A stretch of 64,000 nt of DNA from an uncultured Spirochaetia bacterium (GTDB lineage: Bacteria; Spirochaetota; Spirochaetia; CAKZLE01), in NCBI GenBank assembly GCA_937125225.1, contig CAKZLE010000023.1, positions 1 through 64,000 of the forward strand. The letters run 5' to 3'. Position 1 is the stretch's first letter; every line of letters starts with the position of its first letter. Under the pieces are notes generated by a model. It saw only the letters and a program-made list of their open reading frames with translations, was not told the origin of the DNA and made no database searches. The position numbers were made by a program, and so were the translations under genes. This document shows positions 8,881 to 42,206 of this stretch, piece after piece.

Positions 8881-11439
8881 TCAGACACCATGACCTTTGT
8901 CTTTCTTCTTTTGTATATACATCTCTTGATCTGCTCGATCGACAAAGTCGAAGATCGTCGAATACTCTTCAGGTTGATATTCAGCAAATCCGACACTGGC
9001 ACTTATAGAAAACTGGAACTCATGAGTGTCGTTGACTTTCTCTATCTGTGCATCGATTCTTTTCCAGATCTCCTCAATATCGTCTTTACGAACACCAGGA
9101 AAGGTAATCAAGAATTCATCCCCTCCGATCCTACTGATAAAATCATTACTCCGAATTCCTTCTGAGACTATCTTACTGAAAGTCTTGATCAGATCATCAC
9201 CAAAATTATGGCCAAAGGTATCATTGATATACTTTAAATTGTTCATATCAGCAAAACAGATCGTGACAGGTGTCTCTGTATCTTTGAACTCAAGCACTAC
9301 CCTCTCAAGATGTTCAAAGCCTGCCCTTCGATTTGGTATACCGGTGAGGGGATCAGTCAATGCAAATTGCTTCTCTTTCTTCTCAGAGAATTTTGTCAGT
9401 CTCATATTCTGATACAAGAGAATACTGATAAGAGAAAGTGAGAAGACCAAGATGAGGAACAATCGGTTCTCATTCCAAAAATCTAAGAAGGAAAATGATC
9501 TATTAATGATCAGAGAGCCTTTGGGAAGATCATGCTCATTGATATGATACTTATCCAATTGTAATTTATCGAACATATAGGAATTCGGGCTCTCTTTCAC
9601 AATCGGAATCTCTGCTAACGGAGTTCCCATAAGATATTGGAAGACCATGCTCCCAACGAGTTCTCCCTGATTATAGCCCCGTATCAGCATCCCACCGAGC
9701 AAGCCCTTTCCAAGATAGAAGTCCCATAAACCATAGATGGGAACTGGAGACCTTTCTGAGATCAGTAATATCGATTCATCATAGGAAAAATCATTATAGG
9801 ACCTATCTCTGTTGAAACTTAATAACAAAACCAGATCATCTGTCCCTAAGTCTGGTAATCGCTCTTGGATATCAGCCATATTCAGATCATCCCAAAATTC
9901 AAAATCGACCCTCCCTGCGTAATCGGGAATCAACTTCTCAAGATTCTTTCTATTTCCAAGACCTGTTATTGTCTTATCATTAATGACGACAAATCGCTTG
10001 GTATCCGGGTGGACCTGTAAAGCGATCTCGATGGTCTCTTTCATATTATAGGCCTCAAGCACACCCGTGATATTTTCGATCTGCCCGATCATTTTCTCAT
10101 CATAATAGTTGACTCCACAAAAGAACACAGGAATCTCTGTATTAGAAAAATGGCGAAATCCTGAAATGAACTTAAAGGCATCATCATCTGTGGTGATGAT
10201 CACATCAAACTCTCTTTTATCATATTTTACCTGAAGGAAGTCATAAAGAGATTGGAAATAGGTAGGTTCAGGATTGTTCTTGACATCCATATAATCAAAT
10301 GTGAACTCTACATCCTGTAACAGGGGTGCTAGAGAGTCCATGATTCCCTTCTCTATGTCATCAGTCCACTTCAAACCCTTATTGTAGGAATTCAGAATGA
10401 GTATCTGGTGTTTGTCCCCTTGACCGGTCATATTGATGATCCGGCTATTCTCGGGAAGATCCTCGACTAAGATATCATATTCATTCAGAATCGTATGATC
10501 AAACGCATATTGGGTCATATTCTCTGTGATAACCGGTAGGTTCTCTGGGGATTCACCGTGAAGTATCTCCACCGCTAGTCGTGCAGCCATCTCTCCTTGA
10601 AAGTAGCCACTGATAAGCTTTCCTCCTACTATCCCATAATCGAGATGAAAGTCCCAAACACCGAAGATTGGCACATTACTATTACTACTGATTCTTGAGA
10701 TTGCCTCACTATATGAAAAATAGTTTTTCTGTTTATCTTGAAAATAGATGAGGTAGAGAATCAGACTGTCTTGGGGAAGTGTTCTCACCTTCAACTCGAT
10801 ATCTTCTAGGTTATCGCCATCCAAAGCAACGAAATCCACCTCAGCAGAGAACTCTGGAACCACTTTCAGGAACTCTTTCATGATAGCCTTACCGGTAAGA
10901 CTGTCATCATCGATGAAATAGATCGTCTCAGTTTGAGGTCTAAGATCTAAAGCATTTCTAATCGTATTGGAGATATCATAGCGTTCCACTACTCCAGTAT
11001 AATGATCATACCCAGCTAATATGCTTTCTTCGAAATAGTTCACACCACAGAAAACAGTCGGTGTATCCCCGAATATCTCCTCACCGTAAACTAGAAGAAA
11101 GTTGAAAGCGGCATCGTCTGAAGTGATGATCACATCAAATTGTTGATTTTCGAATTTATCCTGGTAGAGCCTTTGCAGATTTGTGATATAGGACGGGGAA
11201 AGGACTCTTTGCGTATCCATATACTCGACTTGTAACTCAAATGGAGTATCAAGCACTGATAATCCGATCTTGAGGCCCTTCTCAATATCATCACTCCACT
11301 TATATCCTTCATGATATGAGTTGATATAAAGAATATGATCAGACTCCTCCCCCATCAAGGAAAGGCTCGAAAGAAGAAATAGGATTATGAGGAGGATATA
11401 AAGAAAGCTAACATGTTTTATGAAAAATCTGATTTGCAT
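8881..11439 (-). CDS. Membrane GGDEF protein with duplicated periplasmic sensor
   Basis: An 852-residue likely diguanylate cyclase. After a signal-anchor helix the periplasmic part consists of two tandem copies of an ABC substrate-binding-like sensor (about residues 35-340 and 355-660). The copies begin with similar words, ILYINSYHEGYKWSDDIEKG and ILILNSYNKGLKWTDDIEKG, and share TTDDDAF/TSDDAAF and later FCGVNY. A transmembrane helix near 680 leads to a GGDEF domain with the intact signature near residue 772 (RIGGDEFLITF). The start at 11439 has AAGGAG 10 nt upstream. No EAL domain. It probably couples a small periplasmic ligand to c-di-GMP synthesis. Confidence 0.9.
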   Translation of the reverse strand: MQIRFFIKHVSFLYILLIILFLLSSLSLMGEESDHILYINSYHEGYKWSDDIEKGLKIGLSVLDTPFELQVEYMDTQRVLSPSYITNLQRLYQDKFENQQFDVIITSDDAAFNFLLVYGEEIFGDTPTVFCGVNYFEESILAGYDHYTGVVERYDISNTIRNALDLRPQTETIYFIDDDSLTGKAIMKEFLKVVPEFSAEVDFVALDGDNLEDIELKVRTLPQDSLILYLIYFQDKQKNYFSYSEAISRISSNSNVPIFGVWDFHLDYGIVGGKLISGYFQGEMAARLAVEILHGESPENLPVITENMTQYAFDHTILNEYDILVEDLPENSRIINMTGQGDKHQILILNSYNKGLKWTDDIEKGIMDSLAPLLQDVEFTFDYMDVKNNPEPTYFQSLYDFLQVKYDKREFDVIITTDDDAFKFISGFRHFSNTEIPVFFCGVNYYDEKMIGQIENITGVLEAYNMKETIEIALQVHPDTKRFVVINDKTITGLGNRKNLEKLIPDYAGRVDFEFWDDLNMADIQERLPDLGTDDLVLLLSFNRDRSYNDFSYDESILLISERSPVPIYGLWDFYLGKGLLGGMLIRGYNQGELVGSMVFQYLMGTPLAEIPIVKESPNSYMFDKLQLDKYHINEHDLPKGSLIINRSFSFLDFWNENRLFLILVFSLSLISILLYQNMRLTKFSEKKEKQFALTDPLTGIPNRRAGFEHLERVVLEFKDTETPVTICFADMNNLKYINDTFGHNFGDDLIKTFSKIVSEGIRSNDFISRIGGDEFLITFPGVRKDDIEEIWKRIDAQIEKVNDTHEFQFSISASVGFAEYQPEEYSTIFDFVDRADQEMYIQKKKDKGHGV

Positions 11440-11566
11440 GCAATCAGTTCTCCTTTTTTTTGAAAGATAGATTTGTTCGATTTTATAATACCTCGTCGCT
11501 ACTCTAGCAAGACCCGATTCATACAAGTAATCCATGATCTAGAAAAATGAATCTATGGCCCTAGAA

Positions 11567-17097: not shown

Positions 17098-19821
17098 TCA
17101 AGGAGTTAGCATGATCGGGATATCGAGTAGTATCAGCTCTATTGCAGGTTGGTTATCAGTGAAACGATAACTTATACGTAATCCAGATGAGAACTGATAA
17201 TCCTTTTGATTGAACAGGGTCATATCAACAAGGATCTCGATTCCTGCTGATTGGAGGACCCCAACTCCCCCATAGCTGATATCATAGAACATCGAGCCCC
17301 GTACCCTTTTGATGAAAGCACTTGAGAGCATCGAGAAGTCCGGATAGAGTATCGGCAGTTCATAGGTGACCCCTGATGTACCCAGAAATCCATCAGTACC
17401 GACAAGAAGAGCCACTTCGTTTCGTTCATATCCCCTAGCCGGCACCATGGTAGTTGAAATGAGACTCGTATTCCTCCATTCGATACTGCTTGAGAACTGT
17501 AGCAAGTGATCTGTGAAGATCGATGGAAGATAGCCGTTTAATGAATATTTAGCTATCATCGGAAAATCGTTACCCAAAGGGAATTCAGGAAGTATCATAT
17601 AACTGAGTTCGTGATCGAAGCCTGGAATCTGATCATTCAAGGCCCTGTAGGGGGCATCCTTACCATAAGAGAACCTATCAAAGAAGCCTAACCTCAGGGG
17701 ATGGCTTGGTGCATCCGCTGAACCGAATACTCCATATACCCCGATCTGATGGGTAGAGGATCGTCCATACTTCGCCCCATACATAGTAGAGGATAATACC
17801 CCCGTCAGATCATATTCCCACAAGTCAGAGAAATCGGTCTCAACGGCCCCAGTCAATGACTGCAGCAGGACATCACCAGAGTGTGTTACCCCGAGACTCC
17901 CGGTAAATCTTCCACTCTCTGGAATATAACCCACTGAGGCTGAACTCACCCATTCGATATAAGGATCTGCACTCTTCACCCCGAGAATGATTTCATCGAA
18001 TTGATCAGGGATCTGCACTCCCAAGGCATAGGGATTCAAAGCCCAGGACAATTCATTATAAGTACGCTTCTCATAGGTCCTCCCATGAAGAATCTCAGAG
18101 TCGTTGAACAAGTTCGGTTCATAGAAATCTGATACATAACCTGTATGATAATCAATCATATCCTTCTTTTCAGGGATCAATACCATCAAAGACTCCTTAT
18201 CGAAGGAGGTTGTCTCAACGGCATATAAGATTCCATCCACCACTTCAGGATCGAACACCCCATAGGGAGATGTGGTAAGCTGTAACAACTCCCTGGTATC
18301 CAGGTCAAGGGAGTATATCTCCTGAATTCCGGTGATATCTGATGAGAAGTAGAGCTTGTTACCGTCCACTGAAAGCCCATAGAGATAATGATGCCCAAGT
18401 TCATAGAGGACTTCTGAGGAACCATCTAGTGAGAATGCTCGAAGCTCTCGACCTGTCTTACCTTCTACTACCACATAGTAGGTATCACCATCATGGATGA
18501 CACTTGAGAGATAGACAGGATCCTTTGGGGGTATCTTTGCGGTCAGCAGTTTCTTCTCAATATCAAAGGAGAGGATCATCCCCTTCTCTATCGGATCATA
18601 AGAGATGATCGAAATACTATTATCGTCCTCATCAATATAGGGAAGACCGATGAATCTCCCCTCACCTATATCTATAGTCGTTCTCTTATTTCTGTCATAT
18701 AGGACAAGGACCGCAACGGTCTTATCCTTCTCGAATAGCTGTGGTCTGTGTTCGATCCAGGTGACATAGTTCTCAGATATATCAACAGCTGAACCTGAGA
18801 TCGAGAGGATATCCTCTACCCTATTATCTGTAACCTCTTTAAGCCGAAGGCCCTGAGATCTATCGTAATCGATGATAGAGACCTTCTTCTCCTCGATCAG
18901 ATAATCAGAAATATAGGAATACCCTTTACCTGAAGGAGTATAGATCTCCTCTCTTGGAGTCATTTCTCTCAGATTCTCTACCCTCTCCCATTTCGGAATC
19001 AGATCAGACTTCACGAGTTCGAAAAGCCTCTCAGGTGACAGATACCTGCCACCTACTCCGGACAAAGCTATCGTCGGTGAAATGAAGGGGATGGGATATC
19101 TTCCCAGACTCTGGAACAATTCACCAGCTGCTGTAGGGCCCTCTTCGTTCAGCAGGTATCCGAGCATATAGTAGCCATAGACATATTGATTGGGCATATT
19201 ATGGATATAGGAGCCATTAGTGAGCTCCTCCCATGAGATCTCTGGTTTCTCAAGCAGAAGAGCTTTGAATCTACGCTCAAAATCTGCCGATCGACCTCTG
19301 CCCTCTTCTGAATAGATTGTCTCAGATACCACTGCATCACCTTCAAAGATCCAGCTAGGGATCAGGGCATGGGCAAAACTCGTCATCAGCTGATTGCCAC
19401 CTAGATACCTGACAATATTCGTCACACCCGTGTTGATTGTCTCATACTGGATCATATGACGCCCCTCATGTAGGGCGAGAAGATGGAGCCAGGAATCACC
19501 AGAGAAGAAGCTGTCATAAGGAGATAACTCCCACACCGTCCTCGCAACGGGGAGGGAGACATACCCCGAAGGAGATGAGGATTCACCTTCGAGGAGGACA
19601 GGCCATGAAAAGATATTCTTCGTACCCATGAAATCTCTGTAGGTGGTGAGGATTGTATCAAGATCTGCTAAAGACTCTACGGCTATTGCTTCATAGGGTT
19701 CATCATAGATGTAGGTCAATCCATTCATAGATATTTCATACAGTTGTTCTTCGGCGAACGCTGAAGAGGCCATAAGGAGGATCACCATGATGAGAATTCC
19801 TAGAATCGATGAGTTTCGCAT
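17098..19821 (-). CDS. Secreted protein: zinc-protease motif, beta-propeller and outer-membrane barrel
   Basis: A 907-residue exported protein (signal peptide ending SSAFA near residue 23). Residues 118-122 are HEGRH, an HExxH zinc motif, and 38 residues on comes WIFEGDA with Glu160, the gluzincin-type third ligand as in peptidase MA-like proteins. Residues about 300-560 carry TolB/WD40-like propeller blades (SVDGNKLYFSSDITGIQEIY, DPEVVDGILYAVE). The last 300 residues alternate as barrel strands (GVYGVFGSADAP, GSMFYDISYGGVGVLQSAGIEI) like surface-antigen/BamA-type barrels. Start ATG 19821 has AGGAG 7 nt upstream. It probably places a periplasmic or surface protease on an outer-membrane anchor; cleavage activity is inferred. 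Confidence 0.75.
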   Translation of the reverse strand: MRNSSILGILIMVILLMASSAFAEEQLYEISMNGLTYIYDEPYEAIAVESLADLDTILTTYRDFMGTKNIFSWPVLLEGESSSPSGYVSLPVARTVWELSPYDSFFSGDSWLHLLALHEGRHMIQYETINTGVTNIVRYLGGNQLMTSFAHALIPSWIFEGDAVVSETIYSEEGRGRSADFERRFKALLLEKPEISWEELTNGSYIHNMPNQYVYGYYMLGYLLNEEGPTAAGELFQSLGRYPIPFISPTIALSGVGGRYLSPERLFELVKSDLIPKWERVENLREMTPREEIYTPSGKGYSYISDYLIEEKKVSIIDYDRSQGLRLKEVTDNRVEDILSISGSAVDISENYVTWIEHRPQLFEKDKTVAVLVLYDRNKRTTIDIGEGRFIGLPYIDEDDNSISIISYDPIEKGMILSFDIEKKLLTAKIPPKDPVYLSSVIHDGDTYYVVVEGKTGRELRAFSLDGSSEVLYELGHHYLYGLSVDGNKLYFSSDITGIQEIYSLDLDTRELLQLTTSPYGVFDPEVVDGILYAVETTSFDKESLMVLIPEKKDMIDYHTGYVSDFYEPNLFNDSEILHGRTYEKRTYNELSWALNPYALGVQIPDQFDEIILGVKSADPYIEWVSSASVGYIPESGRFTGSLGVTHSGDVLLQSLTGAVETDFSDLWEYDLTGVLSSTMYGAKYGRSSTHQIGVYGVFGSADAPSHPLRLGFFDRFSYGKDAPYRALNDQIPGFDHELSYMILPEFPLGNDFPMIAKYSLNGYLPSIFTDHLLQFSSSIEWRNTSLISTTMVPARGYERNEVALLVGTDGFLGTSGVTYELPILYPDFSMLSSAFIKRVRGSMFYDISYGGVGVLQSAGIEILVDMTLFNQKDYQFSSGLRISYRFTDNQPAIELILLDIPIMLTP

Positions 19822-19883
19822 GCCCAATCTCCTAGTAGTGGTTAAGTAGTTTGTTTTCCTATTATAACTAAGATATCACGGTA

Positions 19884-35039: not shown

Positions 35040-36395
35040 ATGAAAAAAAGATTGTTTTTGACAAGTCTGGTTGTACTGTTACTTTTTACAGCTACAACTG
35101 TTACTGCACAGAATTTCAGTATGGATCTGGATATTGGTGTAGATTATAATATGTTAGATGGAGCGGATGTGGTTGGTGTCAGCATCAATCCAGATATCGC
35201 AGTGGGTAATTTTGGATTTGGTATGAGTGCTATTATTAGATATAGCGTTACAGAATCCAGAATCATATCAGAAGATTGGATTCCCGATTTCACAGGTGAT
35301 ACAAATATTTGGGAAAAGACCCAGACAGCTGCAGCCCTGTATATTCCGCTTTTCAGATATGTACGATACGGGTATAAGGGAGATCCTCTCTATGCCAAGA
35401 TCGGAGACCTCGATAATGTTACAATCGGAACAGGTATCTTCGTTGATGCATATTCAAATACAGAACTTCAGCCAGACCTCAGGATCGCAGGTCTAGAGGT
35501 AGACGTTGATGGAGAGCTCATAGGTTTCCCATATATAGGATTTGAATCCTTTACCAATGATCTTGCTAATTTTGATATAATTGGTGGTCGTGCCTATATA
35601 AGACCTCTTGCATTCGTGGAATTCCCACTCCTTCATAACCTCCAGTTCGGTGGATCGATGATTGTTGATAGAGACCCTGATATTCATGCAGAACTCGGGG
35701 ACTTCACTGCCACTCCTGACATGGTACAGATGTATGGAGCTGATGTGATGATGCCTATCCTGAATATGGGACTGTTAAGCCTTACCGCTTATGGTGACTA
35801 TGCATTTCAGCAGATACCTGATCAGGAGATGAGTTCAGCGATCAGAGCCGGTGCTAAGGGAAAGATCCTTGGATTCGTAACCTATGGTGCCGATATCACC
35901 ATGCCACAGACAGATGCTGTTGGTTATATCCCCTCCTATTTTAATGAGGATTATGATCTAGACCGATCAGTCTCTTATGAATCAGAAGGAATTACTAGTG
36001 GAAACACCTACCTCAATGCAAATGCAGGTTTTGAACTTCTCAACGAGATGTTGGTCTTCAATCTGAATATCTTAGGAGAACTCGAATCATCAGGAAGTGC
36101 TCTCAGCATAACAGATCCTGAGATGAAAGCCTCCTTCAGCCTGGGACAGGGTGTCATCCCATTCGGTTATTTTGATCTAGCATATGAAAAGAGGAACCTT
36201 AATGGTGATTCTCTAGATCTCTTCTTCGATGGTGTCTTAAACCCAACGATCGATTCAACTATCGCGGTAAATGCCACAGTAGTATATAACATGATCGAAC
36301 TACAGATTGGGGGAAGCTTTGACTTTGATGATACCGGTGAGATGACACCGAATATTACCATTGGAGGAGATCTCCAGCTTCCATGGTTTAATTAA
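35040..36395 (+). CDS. Outer-membrane beta-barrel, single-barrel member of a local family
   Basis: A 451-residue exported protein (signal peptide MKKRLFLTSLVVLLLFTATTVTA-like, cut before QNFS) made of alternating strands and ending in LQLPWF. It shares a recognisable core with each of the two barrels in the next gene: GDPLYAKIGDLDNVTIGTG here, against EDTITFGNG and ENISMGTG there, and GADVMMPILN against GIDLIMPIL and GVDLSLPIL. No database family is recognised. The ATG at 35040 is used because GGGAG lies 8 nt upstream. Separate from the next gene, which has its own promoter. Confidence 0.75.
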   Translation: MKKRLFLTSLVVLLLFTATTVTAQNFSMDLDIGVDYNMLDGADVVGVSINPDIAVGNFGFGMSAIIRYSVTESRIISEDWIPDFTGDTNIWEKTQTAAALYIPLFRYVRYGYKGDPLYAKIGDLDNVTIGTGIFVDAYSNTELQPDLRIAGLEVDVDGELIGFPYIGFESFTNDLANFDIIGGRAYIRPLAFVEFPLLHNLQFGGSMIVDRDPDIHAELGDFTATPDMVQMYGADVMMPILNMGLLSLTAYGDYAFQQIPDQEMSSAIRAGAKGKILGFVTYGADITMPQTDAVGYIPSYFNEDYDLDRSVSYESEGITSGNTYLNANAGFELLNEMLVFNLNILGELESSGSALSITDPEMKASFSLGQGVIPFGYFDLAYEKRNLNGDSLDLFFDGVLNPTIDSTIAVNATVVYNMIELQIGGSFDFDDTGEMTPNITIGGDLQLPWFN

Positions 36396-36404
36396 TTAAT
36401 TCAC

Positions 36405-36434
36405 TTGTTTTTACCTGTTAATTAAGGCTATAAT
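36405..36434 (+). promoter_or_regulatory. Promoter of the FecR/double-barrel gene
   Basis: TTGTTT (36405-36410), an 18-nt spacer, and a perfect TATAAT (36429-36434). It starts inside the 117-bp gap after the single-barrel gene. Confidence 0.65.
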
Positions 36435-36449
36435 TGAGCAATGAAATCT

Positions 36450-36485
36450 ATAGGGTTCTTTCAAAATATATTGAGAGGACCCTAT
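36450..36485 (+). promoter_or_regulatory. Stem-loop in the 5' leader of the double-barrel gene
   Basis: ATAGGGTTC (36450-36458) pairs with GGACCCTAT (36477-36485), nine pairs with one G-U, about 30 nt before the start codon. Could stabilise the mRNA or affect translation. Confidence 0.4.
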
Positions 36486-36512
36486 ATCCATATGGAATAA
36501 AGAGAGAACTCA

Positions 36513-39500
36513 ATGAAAAGAACAAGATTGACACTCATAAAAACACTTCTACTTGCCCTGCTGCTACTATCTCTGACTACCCCATTATATGCAGAGGATA
36601 CTCCTTTGGAGTTTCTCACTCATATCAATGGGGATGAAGACGTCAAGTTCTTCAATCCTACAGGTCTATATCAGAAAATACCAGAACAGGTTACTGTCTT
36701 GCAAAAAGATTGGATCATACAGACAGGAGAAGATTCTATTGAGCTCACACTCATAGAAGGTGCCCTAAGAATCGGCTCCGATACATTACTTGCAATTGAT
36801 GCGTTATCGGTAGAAAGAATCGATATATTCGTCATGAAAGGCTCAGTGAGAGCAGTATCTGATAGTGATGTCCCAATCAATCTTCTTACAAAGAGTAACC
36901 AATACTCCTTCGCTACAGGAGATTTTACACTTATCAAAGATGGTCTCGATGAAAGATTCTTCACTAATGAGGGAGCCGCTGAAGCGAGTACGCTCACAGA
37001 TGCAGAGAAGATCGAGTTAGATACACATTCCACTATCACAGGCGGTGTTGTCGCTACAGTTGAGGAAGAGACTATAAGAAATGTAAACGAAAGTCTTCCC
37101 ATAACGTTCTATAAGAGAGCTGAGAACTTACTAAGTATTGAGGTCTCACCTACCCCAGTCGACTCAGAACCTGAGATCGTACTAGCTGAAGCCCCCCCAG
37201 TAGATACCGAGGAGTCCCTCATACTTGATACACCAGAACCAGTCACTGAGATTGCGGCAATCGAACCTGAAGTGGTAGAACCGGAACTAGTTGCTGAACT
37301 ACCCGTCGAGGATGATATCCTTATCATGGTAGAGCCTGAAGAGGAAATCCCCGTCGAAATTCCTGAACCGGTGACTGAGATTGCATCAGTAGAGGATATC
37401 CCAGCAAAAGATACAGAACATAGAGCTCCGATAGTTCAGGATATTGAGTTGATCTTAGATGATGAGACCAATGAATCCACAAAGGAAGGTTCTAATACTC
37501 CTTCAGAAAACTCTTCAGTCGCAACTTCTACAAATACTAAAAAAACAGAGTCAATAGACGACACAACGAACAGTGTGGATAATAATGAAGAAGCAACAAC
37601 AGTCGTAGCGAAAGCAGACTTACAGGATGAGGCCATTAACACTTCTGAAGATGCTGATTCTGCTGCTCTCATTGATGAAAAAAAGAAGATCGAAGAAAGC
37701 TCACTCGATATAGATGCAACAATCACAACCGGTTTAGGGTATATGCATCAGTTAGGAACCAGTTCACCAGAAGAACCCTATATATCGACTGCTCTCTATC
37801 CTGAGATAAGCATTGGAAAACTTGACCTTGGTTTCAGATTATATATAGCTTTCAACGGTAACCCAATCAATGTAAGTTCCTGGTATTCACCAAGAGGTGA
37901 TAATCTGTGGAATTATGGTGGTGGCACCTCGGGCTTTGTACAGATTGAAGATATAGCAACAGATGCCTTATCACTGATCGACCACGTCTATTATGGTGAT
38001 CCCGAAGATACTTTTTATATCAATCTCGATCGAGAGGATACTATCACCTTCGGTAACGGTTCACTATTATCAGACCTTCAAACCTCTATTGATTCTCCAT
38101 ATCTTGAGAGAGCGGGTCTCTATTCAAGTATCAACTCTCCCTATTATCAACAGGAATTGCTCGTAGATGATATCTATCATTCGAGTGTTTATGGTGCACG
38201 ATTTGCAGTCACACCACTTCCAGTGAGCTTCCCCTTTTCAATCGGAATCTTCACTTTGGCAGATATCTCCACATCTCCCACTAAGATCCTGATGACTCCA
38301 GGAATCGATCTAATCATGCCGATTCTCAAAACTGAAAACAGCTCTATGAATCTTATTGCAGATGCTGCTGGTATGATGGTATTTGATTTTGAGAATGATA
38401 TTCTAGCTTATGATGCATCATTCTCAGGTGGGGTGATCCAGAATATTCTTGCCTCAGCAGGTATCTCAGGAACAGCAGGTAATCTCTCATATGAATTGAT
38501 TGGTGCTTATGATAGAGGTAATCTATCCTATAACATGTTCGGAGAGGATTATCAGTGGAGAAGATCTGAGATCATCTCTTTGATTGATGACTATACCACA
38601 GATGCTACTGAGACTAGTTACACAGCATTTGCAAGTCTTGGTTATGATTCTAGGGCCTTTGGGACATCTCTGTCCTATCGACTTCCATTTTCTGCTTCCT
38701 TCGCTCCAGACTTGAGTTCTGATCGACTCAATCTTTCAGTGAATGCTCATATTGATAATCTCACAGCAGAGATCGGCTATTCATCTGATGGTTTGATAGA
38801 TTCCCTTATGAATGGGCCTTTCGATCTATTCTCAACAGATAATAGACTCTATGGTTCGCTTGCATATGACCTTGATGATATCAATCTTAAAGTCACCTAT
38901 TCACATATAGCTGAATATGACACGACAGACTACTTGGTCGCCAATCCTACTACCATTCCAACACTTTCAATCGAATCGAATATTCGATTATTCACTACTG
39001 AGAAGAGCGAGGTCATCTCCTCGGACTCAAAACAGACTAAGGTCAAGAAGAGCGAGTCTCTCTTCACTCTAGGTCTTGGTACAGCATTCATGGACTCTGC
39101 CATAGATACCTATGACTTAGGTCCCTATACAGCTCTAGAGATCTACCCGGGTCTAAGGACTAAGAACTTTGAACTTACATTAGGGTTTGGTGTAGTAACA
39201 AATGGAAACCCATTCTTATCAACAGACTGGTATTATGAGGGGGGAAATAATCCACTCTGGTTATTCTCAGACCCTATCACCGCCGATATGTATTCAATCA
39301 GATCTACCGCTCTACAGATTCTTTCCTTTATCGATCATATGGAAATTAATTCTGCTGATGACCCCTATCATCTTCTGATCTCTGATCAAGAGAATATCAG
39401 TATGGGAACAGGTACTATGATCTCAGATCTACTCACGGCAATTGATTATCCATTTGTCACAAGAACGGCTCTCTACAGCCACTTAGATACTGACTTTTTT

Positions 39501-40397
39501 GAATCTGAGATCTTTGTTAATGATTTGAACAATACACAATTGATGGGACTCCGATTCGGAATCACTCCTGTTCCTAATGTCTATGCTGCAGAGATTGGAT
39601 TATCTGCAATAACCGATATAACTCTTCAGTCATCTGCATTGGCTGATACCTCTGCGACTCAGATGATCATGGTTCCCGGAGTCGATCTTAGCCTCCCAAT
39701 CCTCGATCGTACAAATACGAACCTCTCTCTTTTCACAGATTTCTATATGCTCATGGTACTAGATGAGGGATTTAAAACAGAGGCTTTAACGAACTACCTC
39801 GCATCAGTTGGTCTCAATTTCTCCCAAGGAGTCTTCTCAACAGAGCTATCCTTAGCTTATGATCATGGTCTACTTGATCCGAACATGTTCGGTCGAGACT
39901 ATTCATGGAGACGGAAAGCAGTCTGTGATGCCCTCATTAACAACTTAAATGACCCACTAGAGGTTGATCTAGATGCACTTCTTTCTTTCGGAATACAAAC
40001 AGAAGTATTCTCTTTCAATGGCTTTGTAAATATGCAGATGACTACCTCTTTTGCGTTAGACTTCAGTGATAATACATCGAATATGACTGCACCAGATATC
40101 TTCGGATTCGATACGGCAGTGACTCTAGATAATTTCCAGTTCGCTCTTGGGTATGCTAAAAGAGGTATTTCTTATGATCTGAGAAATGGAAGTTTTGATT
40201 TCTTTGATAACTCTTCTCAGTTCTATGCTGACATGAGTTATGCGACCGGAGATATCGAACTATATGGAAGGTTCTCATCTGTCGGTGAATATCAAGACGA
40301 ACGTAATACAGACTATTACCTTGATCATGATGATGATCCAATCTCAGAGACTGTATCACCTGCATATACCATCGGTACAGTCTTACACCTACTCTAA
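36513..40397 (+). CDS. FecR-domain protein with two tandem beta-barrel domains
   Basis: A 1294-residue exported protein. After a signal peptide (to about residue 28) residues 35-110 look like a FecR domain (VTVLQKDWIIQTGEDSIELTLIEGA). Residues about 200-390 are an acidic P/E/T-rich linker with PEPVTEIA repeated. Then come two homologous barrel domains, about 396-835 and 849-1294: matching landmarks are NGNPINVSSWY/NGNPFLSTDWYY, LLSDLQTSIDSPYLERAGLYS/MISDLLTAIDYPFVTRTALYS and YNMFGEDYQWRR/PNMFGRDYSWRR, spaced about 449 residues. The upstream gene is a shorter relative. The likely picture is a periplasmic, perhaps peptidoglycan-facing, FecR head tethered to a double outer-membrane barrel. Function unknown. 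Confidence 0.78.
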   Translation: MKRTRLTLIKTLLLALLLLSLTTPLYAEDTPLEFLTHINGDEDVKFFNPTGLYQKIPEQVTVLQKDWIIQTGEDSIELTLIEGALRIGSDTLLAIDALSVERIDIFVMKGSVRAVSDSDVPINLLTKSNQYSFATGDFTLIKDGLDERFFTNEGAAEASTLTDAEKIELDTHSTITGGVVATVEEETIRNVNESLPITFYKRAENLLSIEVSPTPVDSEPEIVLAEAPPVDTEESLILDTPEPVTEIAAIEPEVVEPELVAELPVEDDILIMVEPEEEIPVEIPEPVTEIASVEDIPAKDTEHRAPIVQDIELILDDETNESTKEGSNTPSENSSVATSTNTKKTESIDDTTNSVDNNEEATTVVAKADLQDEAINTSEDADSAALIDEKKKIEESSLDIDATITTGLGYMHQLGTSSPEEPYISTALYPEISIGKLDLGFRLYIAFNGNPINVSSWYSPRGDNLWNYGGGTSGFVQIEDIATDALSLIDHVYYGDPEDTFYINLDREDTITFGNGSLLSDLQTSIDSPYLERAGLYSSINSPYYQQELLVDDIYHSSVYGARFAVTPLPVSFPFSIGIFTLADISTSPTKILMTPGIDLIMPILKTENSSMNLIADAAGMMVFDFENDILAYDASFSGGVIQNILASAGISGTAGNLSYELIGAYDRGNLSYNMFGEDYQWRRSEIISLIDDYTTDATETSYTAFASLGYDSRAFGTSLSYRLPFSASFAPDLSSDRLNLSVNAHIDNLTAEIGYSSDGLIDSLMNGPFDLFSTDNRLYGSLAYDLDDINLKVTYSHIAEYDTTDYLVANPTTIPTLSIESNIRLFTTEKSEVISSDSKQTKVKKSESLFTLGLGTAFMDSAIDTYDLGPYTALEIYPGLRTKNFELTLGFGVVTNGNPFLSTDWYYEGGNNPLWLFSDPITADMYSIRSTALQILSFIDHMEINSADDPYHLLISDQENISMGTGTMISDLLTAIDYPFVTRTALYSHLDTDFFESEIFVNDLNNTQLMGLRFGITPVPNVYAAEIGLSAITDITLQSSALADTSATQMIMVPGVDLSLPILDRTNTNLSLFTDFYMLMVLDEGFKTEALTNYLASVGLNFSQGVFSTELSLAYDHGLLDPNMFGRDYSWRRKAVCDALINNLNDPLEVDLDALLSFGIQTEVFSFNGFVNMQMTTSFALDFSDNTSNMTAPDIFGFDTAVTLDNFQFALGYAKRGISYDLRNGSFDFFDNSSQFYADMSYATGDIELYGRFSSVGEYQDERNTDYYLDHDDDPISETVSPAYTIGTVLHLL

Positions 40398-40412: not shown

Positions 40413-42206
40413 ATGGGAAATAGACCACAAAGGATCAGAGAACTTGATCCCTATGTTGCACAGAGAATAGCCGCAGGCGAGGTAATAGACCGCCCACAGG
40501 CTATCATTCGAGAATTACTTGATAACTCCATAGATGCCGGATCCACTACTATTGATGTTTATCTCGAACAGGGAGGTATCTCATCGATCAAAGTGATAGA
40601 TGATGGGATTGGAATGAGTCAAGATGATATCTCTATCTGTTACAAATCACATACTACATCAAAGATCACCACCATTGATGATCTCTATTCGATTCGTACT
40701 CTTGGATTCAGAGGTGAAGCTCTATCGAGTATTGCAGCTTGTTCTAAACTCAGGATCATTAGTACCTATGAGAAAGAACCAACCTATACTGTCTCTATCC
40801 TAGATGGGAAAGCTGAAGGTCCCTATGAATCAGGTCATGCGAAAGGAACGACGATTGAGATCAATGATCTTTTCTATTCTATCCCAGGTAGAAGAAAGTT
40901 CCTGAAGAGTCCCCAAGCGGAGACAGCAGCCTGTAAGAAGATGTTCATAGAGAAATCACTCATGTACCCTGAAATCCAATTCAGATTCTTCAGTAATGGA
41001 AATCTCAATCTCTTCCTTCCAAAGAATCATCAGGTAGGAAGAATCATTGATGCCTACCCTGCAAGAAAATTCAATTCAGTCTTCCTTCATACTGTAGGAG
41101 AAAGTGCAGGAGATTTCTCCTTACGCCTCATTTGCAGTGATCCATCGATCTACAGGAATGACAGAACCTATATTCAAATATACGTGAATAATCGACGTAT
41201 TGATGATTACTCATTAGTACAGGCAGTACAATACGGGTATACCGAATATCTTCCGGGAGGATGTTTTCCCTACTGCTTTGTCTCGATAAATATTGACCCA
41301 GAACTCGTTGATTTTAATATTCATCCAGCAAAGAGAGAGGTGAAACTTCGAAGAGGAAAAGAGATCCATCATCAAATCGTAGAGACCATAAAACATTTTC
41401 TCTACCAGGATCATAAGAAGGTTATACAGGATTCACAAGCGGTCCAGAAGAGTTGGAACTTCTCGGATACACCGGTAACGAGAGATATTTCGAACAATCA
41501 GCAATCATTTTCAACGAAACCGACTTATCACCCTAGTTCACGAGACTTCTCCTATCAGAGAACATCAATACCTTCACCAAATCATAACTGGATCAATGAA
41601 GCTAAAGAGATCTTTACCCCTCAGGATAAGACCCAAGTCGAAATACCAGAGAGAAGCTCCTATGATTTTTTCTACCATGGACAACTCTTTGGAGTATTCC
41701 TCATTGTCGAAAAAGAGGAATCTTTGTTCCTCATCGATCAGCATGCTGCACATGAAAAGGTAATCTACAAAGAACTCAGTGAACATGTTCACTCACAACC
41801 CCTTCTCGTTCCGATCGAATTCGATGTCACAGAAGATGTAGGACGCCATATTTCAACACATCTTGAATCCTATCAGGCTCTTGGGATCAGATTAGAACCT
41901 GTTAGTGAAAACCTCAGGAATTGGGAACTCATAGCTCTTCCAAACTATGCACGATCTATCGAGCAGGATATCATAACTTTTATACAAGAAGAGGTGGGCT
42001 CCCCCGAGGAGATCACCCGTTCACTTTTTGCTACGATTTCTTGTCGGGCTGCAATCAAAGAAGGTGATGTGATCGATGATCAGACTGCGAATGAGTTAAT
42101 CTCAAAAGTGTTGGAACTAGAACTTCCAAGGTGCCCTCATGGACGCCCTGTCTGGAAAGAGATCACACGAGAAGAACTTTATCGGGCTGTGAGAAGATTA
42201 ATCTGA
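40413..42206 (+). CDS. mutL: DNA mismatch repair protein MutL
   Basis: A 597-residue mismatch-repair ATPase. The GHKL ATP-binding motifs are at the N-terminus: ELLDNSIDAG near residue 30, DDGIGM near 55 and TLGFRGEALSSI near 92. The C-terminal domain carries the endonuclease motif DQHAAHEKVIYKE (near 442), ISCRAAIK and CPHGRP, so this MutL nicks DNA itself, as expected in organisms without MutH. It begins 15 bp after the double-barrel gene; its end overlaps the convergent lipoprotein gene by 9 bp. Confidence 0.97.
   Translation: MGNRPQRIRELDPYVAQRIAAGEVIDRPQAIIRELLDNSIDAGSTTIDVYLEQGGISSIKVIDDGIGMSQDDISICYKSHTTSKITTIDDLYSIRTLGFRGEALSSIAACSKLRIISTYEKEPTYTVSILDGKAEGPYESGHAKGTTIEINDLFYSIPGRRKFLKSPQAETAACKKMFIEKSLMYPEIQFRFFSNGNLNLFLPKNHQVGRIIDAYPARKFNSVFLHTVGESAGDFSLRLICSDPSIYRNDRTYIQIYVNNRRIDDYSLVQAVQYGYTEYLPGGCFPYCFVSINIDPELVDFNIHPAKREVKLRRGKEIHHQIVETIKHFLYQDHKKVIQDSQAVQKSWNFSDTPVTRDISNNQQSFSTKPTYHPSSRDFSYQRTSIPSPNHNWINEAKEIFTPQDKTQVEIPERSSYDFFYHGQLFGVFLIVEKEESLFLIDQHAAHEKVIYKELSEHVHSQPLLVPIEFDVTEDVGRHISTHLESYQALGIRLEPVSENLRNWELIALPNYARSIEQDIITFIQEEVGSPEEITRSLFATISCRAAIKEGDVIDDQTANELISKVLELELPRCPHGRPVWKEITREELYRAVRRLI

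Follow-up and report, generated by a model that had tools for sequence, protein, structure and literature searches.

Two adjacent genes of an uncultured spirochaete, the larger of which appeared to join two outer-membrane barrels to a FecR-like domain in one polypeptide, raise the questions of whether their products form a family of their own and of what such proteins might do in the envelope. The window analyzed here is a stretch of 64,000 nucleotides from contig 23 of a 3.4 Mb genome. A check of its open reading frames found both genes intact where the earlier note had placed them. The first, here called SMALL (positions 35040..36395, + strand), encodes a predicted single outer-membrane barrel of 451 aa with an N-terminal signal peptide; position 35040 is most likely its start, judging from the GGGAG ribosome-binding-like site that precedes it. 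The second, BIG (36513..40397, +), encodes a protein of 1294 aa. Behind a signal peptide, BIG comprises a FecR-like head (about residues 32-185, approximate edges; 36606..37067, +), an acidic, proline-containing linker (about residues 186-395; 37068..37697, +) and two barrel domains, D1 (about residues 396-828; 37698..38996, +) and D2 (residues 849-1294; 39057..40394, +), which are separated by a linker of 20 charged residues (38997..39056, +). The PEPVTEIA repeat attributed to the acidic linker can be read directly, in two copies. The mutL gene lies downstream (40413..42206, +; Pfam MutL_C and DNA_mis_repair); it is a kept neighbour, treated here as a synteny marker with no claim of a functional link. 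Scanning the locus for promoters and terminators gave nothing above shuffled sequences.

The proposal that the 1294-residue protein contains two homologous barrels in tandem was borne out by its barrel-like AlphaFold model (see below) and by BLASTP, where D1 (residues 391-848) and D2 (residues 841-1294) share 31% identity over 407 aa (E = 4.7e-66). SMALL itself matches D1 with E = 1e-8 and D2 with E = 2.8e-8. The 451-residue neighbour had been credited with the core motifs of the same barrel; the kinship is real but was understated, since the profile-profile alignment of the SMALL family with the BIG-barrel family extends over 396 columns (Prob 99.9, E = 1.6e-34) and thus makes SMALL a full-length relative, not a motif-sharer only. 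The barrels match no Pfam family and no NCBIfam model above its cut-off, the sole NCBIfam entry being a sub-cut-off match of SMALL to ImpL63. PDB sequences compared with family profiles A2 and A3 gave no match at E≤10, and no credible sequence relative emerged from PDB, so that membership in the AlgE or OprD porins by sequence homology found no support in this search. No experimental work on any close member of SMALL or BIG was found in the literature searched. The barrel family is real and, in these libraries and this literature, undescribed as a family; the earlier impression of novelty holds for Pfam, for NCBIfam above cut-off and for PDB sequences, but has to accommodate a distant catalogued relative in ImpL63. 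A barrel family spread through one phylum, and missed by curated libraries, is hereby named.

The AlphaFold model of SMALL, built with 69 family sequences, has a mean pLDDT of 91 and a pTM of 0.84. Predicting the two barrel domains of BIG together, as the earlier note had proposed, yielded a barrel-like, all-hairpin model of moderate quality (mean pLDDT 75.3, pTM 0.58). D1, where pLDDT is mostly above 75, is modeled better than D2 because single-barrel relatives align to D1; the linker between them falls below 50 (model residues 434-453). Both models are made of beta hairpins throughout, with 16-17 strands of at least 7 residues per domain. All 50 PDB fold matches listed for each model are outer-membrane barrels, among them LptD, TonB-dependent receptors, SlpA, MOMP, AlgE, OprD, Wzi, OmpG and ushers. 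The models and these matches do not support a beta-helix or other non-barrel fold. The best matches of SMALL are the AlgE, MOMP, OprD and Wzi channels, with which it shares about 10% identity, TM-scores below 0.45 and no sequence relation. TM-scores against the best known-barrel matches are low (0.28-0.39 of SMALL), meaning that no known barrel family is close and that function cannot be read from the fold; a BFVD fold search with SMALL returned one weak porin match. In the predicted strands, the in/out alternation of polarity exceeds that of shuffled strands (z 5.3 for SMALL, 3.4 for D1 and 5.1 for D2). A C-terminal Phe or Tyr is common in outer-membrane barrels, and such a residue ends 45 of the 56 complete BIG and 59 of the 74 complete SMALL proteins. 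The barrel nature of SMALL, D1 and D2 is thus well supported by computation; given the low TM-scores, closure and strand number are inferred. Fold matches, strand alternation and C-terminal residues together suggest that SMALL and BIG probably reside in the outer membrane.

The relationship to ImpL63 (NCBIfam NF047543, from Leptospira) bears on this location. ImpL63 is a full-length homologue of SMALL: the SMALL profile aligns over 404 columns with a set of aligned ImpL63-like proteins taken from other families of spirochaetes (hhalign, Prob 99.5, E = 3.7e-22), and NF047543 is matched weakly by 10 of 15 family members (best 2.4e-7). SMALL scores 18.9 bits against the NF047543 model, whose curated cut-off is 1000 bits, and ImpL63 differs from it in being longer (525 model positions) and in being catalogued as a cytoplasmic-membrane protein. 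From these comparisons, the two belong to the same superfamily but not to the same family. Work on Leptospira has relied on ImpL63 to mark the inner membrane (PMC2698987). Several ImpL63-like proteins (L147-L159) terminate in Phe. Either the inner-membrane label of ImpL63 merits a re-check, which would call a Leptospira fractionation marker into question, or the superfamily has members outside the outer membrane.

How exceptional is the tandem? BIG normally consists of a FecR head and one barrel, as in 55 of the 56 complete BIG genes in named loci; the single two-barrel gene, at L058, apparently comes from the same record as genome G001. The notion that covalent tandem barrels are rare holds, but there is a precedent: a class of outer-membrane proteins with several barrels has already been described (Solan et al. 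2021, PNAS, doi 10.1073/pnas.2104059118, as cited in PMC11494523). One of these multibarrel proteins, GfcD, has a 12-strand and a 13-strand barrel, separated by a periplasmic domain (PMC11494523). Like BIG, these proteins, GfcD included, carry two barrels per chain; unlike GfcD, BIG has two homologous barrels of ~430 aa in direct tandem, with a FecR head in front. The length of D1, like that of D2, equals that of an entire barrel in single-barrel homologues; together with their homology and the AlphaFold model, these lengths identify two complete barrel domains on one chain. As far as the class is described in these sources, the window's BIG is a rare two-barrel variant within it.

Tree reconstruction indicates that the tandem has more than one origin. 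The D1 domains of the window's genome (G000) and of G001, its nearest relative, join each other (100/99), as do their D2 domains (99/98), so that the duplication predates the split between these genomes. The tandem of genome G072 instead clusters (100/100) with the single barrels found in its family and therefore arose independently; long branches prevent a firm placement of the G008 tandem. The two-barrel BIG of G072 (L032:888-4529) has an N-terminal region that is not a FecR head. The G008 variant (L033:6929-11641, - strand), which SMALL does not adjoin, has two barrels and a FecR-like head, along with a domain that resembles 5'-nucleotidases (CD73, E about 1e-10) and has apparently lost its metal ligands. 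Two further candidates, the long open frames (1227 aa) of G088 (L034/L111) and L113, were rejected as tandems: they contain one barrel only, the extra length mostly overlapping SMALL in another frame. D1 of the window's BIG terminates in SIESNIRLF, at the point where aligned single-barrel homologues terminate in ITIETRIxF; in D1 the end signal is thus retained at an internal position. Natural one- and two-barrel versions of BIG should be useful for studying how BAM folds two barrels per chain, a question to which the retained signal is relevant.

The two genes form what is, on well-supported sequence evidence, a conserved spirochaete gene pair, widespread in the phylum. Of 80 named loci, 77 of them with sufficient flanking sequence, 69 have BIG next after SMALL, at a median gap of 14 bases, and mutL adjoins BIG in 43 of the 53 named loci where the contig reaches far enough. 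A profile search for further family members, another step that had been proposed, was productive: SMALL was found in 86 of 247 genomes of the phylum, other classes included, and in 55 of 95 relatives. BIG homologues occur in 59 of 98 relatives at E≤1e-3. Adjacent SMALL-BIG pairs are found in other classes of the phylum as well. Scanning genome contigs with BIG alone as query gave no match; an alignment of SMALL did give matches. The SMALL profile matched no apparent Treponema sensu stricto or Borrelia genome, as judged by size and kinship, in either the 247-genome phylum set or the 95 relatives. Hence the locus is unusual for its rare tandem but no one-off, being a variant of a conserved pair in which a one-barrel BIG is normal. 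SMALL directly precedes mutL, without BIG, in 7 named loci and 4 complete BIG proteins have no head, so that any complex of the two cannot be obligate everywhere.

Assignment of the head to the FecR type, already made in the earlier note, was confirmed indirectly. The window's BIG is itself below the Pfam FecR threshold; PF04773 is, however, recognized in 25 of 31 BIG homologues (best 2.1e-13), and an HMM of the head, made without the window protein, gives the window's head 54 bits, compared with 7 for the best of 200 shuffles. By these sequence matches it is of the PF04773 type but, unlike the inner-membrane anti-sigma regulator FecR, it stands behind a signal peptide and is fused to a barrel. 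In genome G033, an ORF of 331 aa (L050:5925-6920, - strand) encodes a head with no barrel, with TtcA on one side and MutL on the other.

A third protein is associated with the pair in many genomes. This giant of ~1600 aa is commonly encoded just upstream of SMALL (e.g., L056:4028-8914, L071:4079-8827 and L041:126-5009), has no Pfam family and no match among PDB sequences, and is unrelated to BIG by sequence (E = 0.28). The giant was found in 59 of 95 relatives; the window's genome and G001 lack it. In raw counts that ignore kinship, 48 of the 95 relatives have both giant and SMALL, 7 SMALL only and 11 the giant only. The SprA model (TIGR04189) gave weak matches (best E = 2e-4), nearly all of them within the giant, mostly N-terminal and colinear. 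In this the giant resembles the SprA/Sov translocon of type IX secretion; it differs in falling below cut-off in all genomes. No SprA above cut-off was found in the 95 relatives and no match at all in the window's genome, so that membership in type IX secretion is not indicated. Type IX secretion is reported to be restricted to Bacteroidetes (PMC4793230). The SprA-like matches are a lead, not evidence of membership; if followed up, they may reveal a secretion component outside Bacteroidota.

What, then, might the pair do? In our preferred reading, to which we give a probability of roughly one half, the side-by-side genes encode two homologous outer-membrane barrels that would be partners in one channel or export complex, with the head of BIG in the periplasm. 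Since a signal peptide stands before the head, and the barrel behind it should have both termini on the periplasmic side, the head would hang into the periplasm on its long acidic linker, where peptidoglycan, a cargo or a periplasmic partner would be its most likely docking site. The complex itself would most likely be a channel or an export/assembly gate. The physical contact, the role of the head and transport are what we infer; the use of ImpL63, a full-length relative, as an inner-membrane marker (PMC2698987) counts against an outer-membrane complex. The SprA-like giant, encoded in most pair-bearing relatives, is a candidate for the main pore; the window's lineage lacks it, and there BIG has acquired a second barrel in cis, for a total of one SMALL and two BIG barrels. 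More specifically, one may picture a spirochaete export machine made of giant, SMALL and BIG, whose pore was rebuilt in giant-less lineages by fusion of a second BIG barrel. All four tandem genomes (G000, G001, G008 and G072) do lack the giant, a small number in which kinship is ignored, and we hold this picture to be speculative and rather improbable.

Instead of an export complex, SMALL, D1 and D2 could be channels, for general diffusion or for particular substrates, in the size class of AlgE, OprD and MOMP, the tandem being a covalently fused oligomer with no export role. The best fold matches of SMALL are indeed monomeric channels or porins of the 18-strand class (AlgE, OprD/Occ, MOMP, Wzi), and three homologous barrels per locus would suit a fused hetero-trimer. 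However, a large N-terminal periplasmic domain is not usual for porins, and porins would explain neither why SMALL so often pairs with BIG nor the link to the giant; a solute-uptake function is therefore possible but on the unlikely side. Doubtful to a greater degree is a tether between outer membrane and cell wall, in which the barrels would be anchors, the head would bind peptidoglycan across the periplasm and the linker would act as spacer. The long acidic linker of the window's BIG would fit this role, and FecR domains are fused to peptidoglycan-binding LysM domains in other bacteria (PMC5192318); yet the literature searched contained no demonstration that a FecR domain itself binds peptidoglycan, the head is lost in some BIG proteins and an anchor needs no two large barrels.

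An envelope sensor of the Fec type, suggested in the earlier note and in keeping with a FecR-type head, would, like FecA-FecR-FecI, relay signals received at the barrel to a regulator in the cytoplasm. We reject it as highly improbable on protein architecture and gene neighbours: the head lies behind the N-terminal signal peptide of BIG and has no cytoplasmic anti-sigma part, FecR and barrel are separate proteins in Fec systems, and no sigma-factor gene adjoins the pair, whose neighbours encode TtcA, MutL and an HD protein. A surface adhesin or scaffold deserves equally little credence: nothing excludes ligand binding by the exposed loops of outer-membrane barrels, but the models predict no large extracellular insertion domain in D1, D2 or SMALL, and the apparent Treponema sensu stricto and Borrelia genomes gave no match to the family.

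Elsewhere in the window, an ORF of 909 aa (17098-19827, - strand) has no Pfam match at E≤1e-4, and another on the same strand (8881-11535) encodes an ABC substrate-binding-like domain fused to a GGDEF domain.
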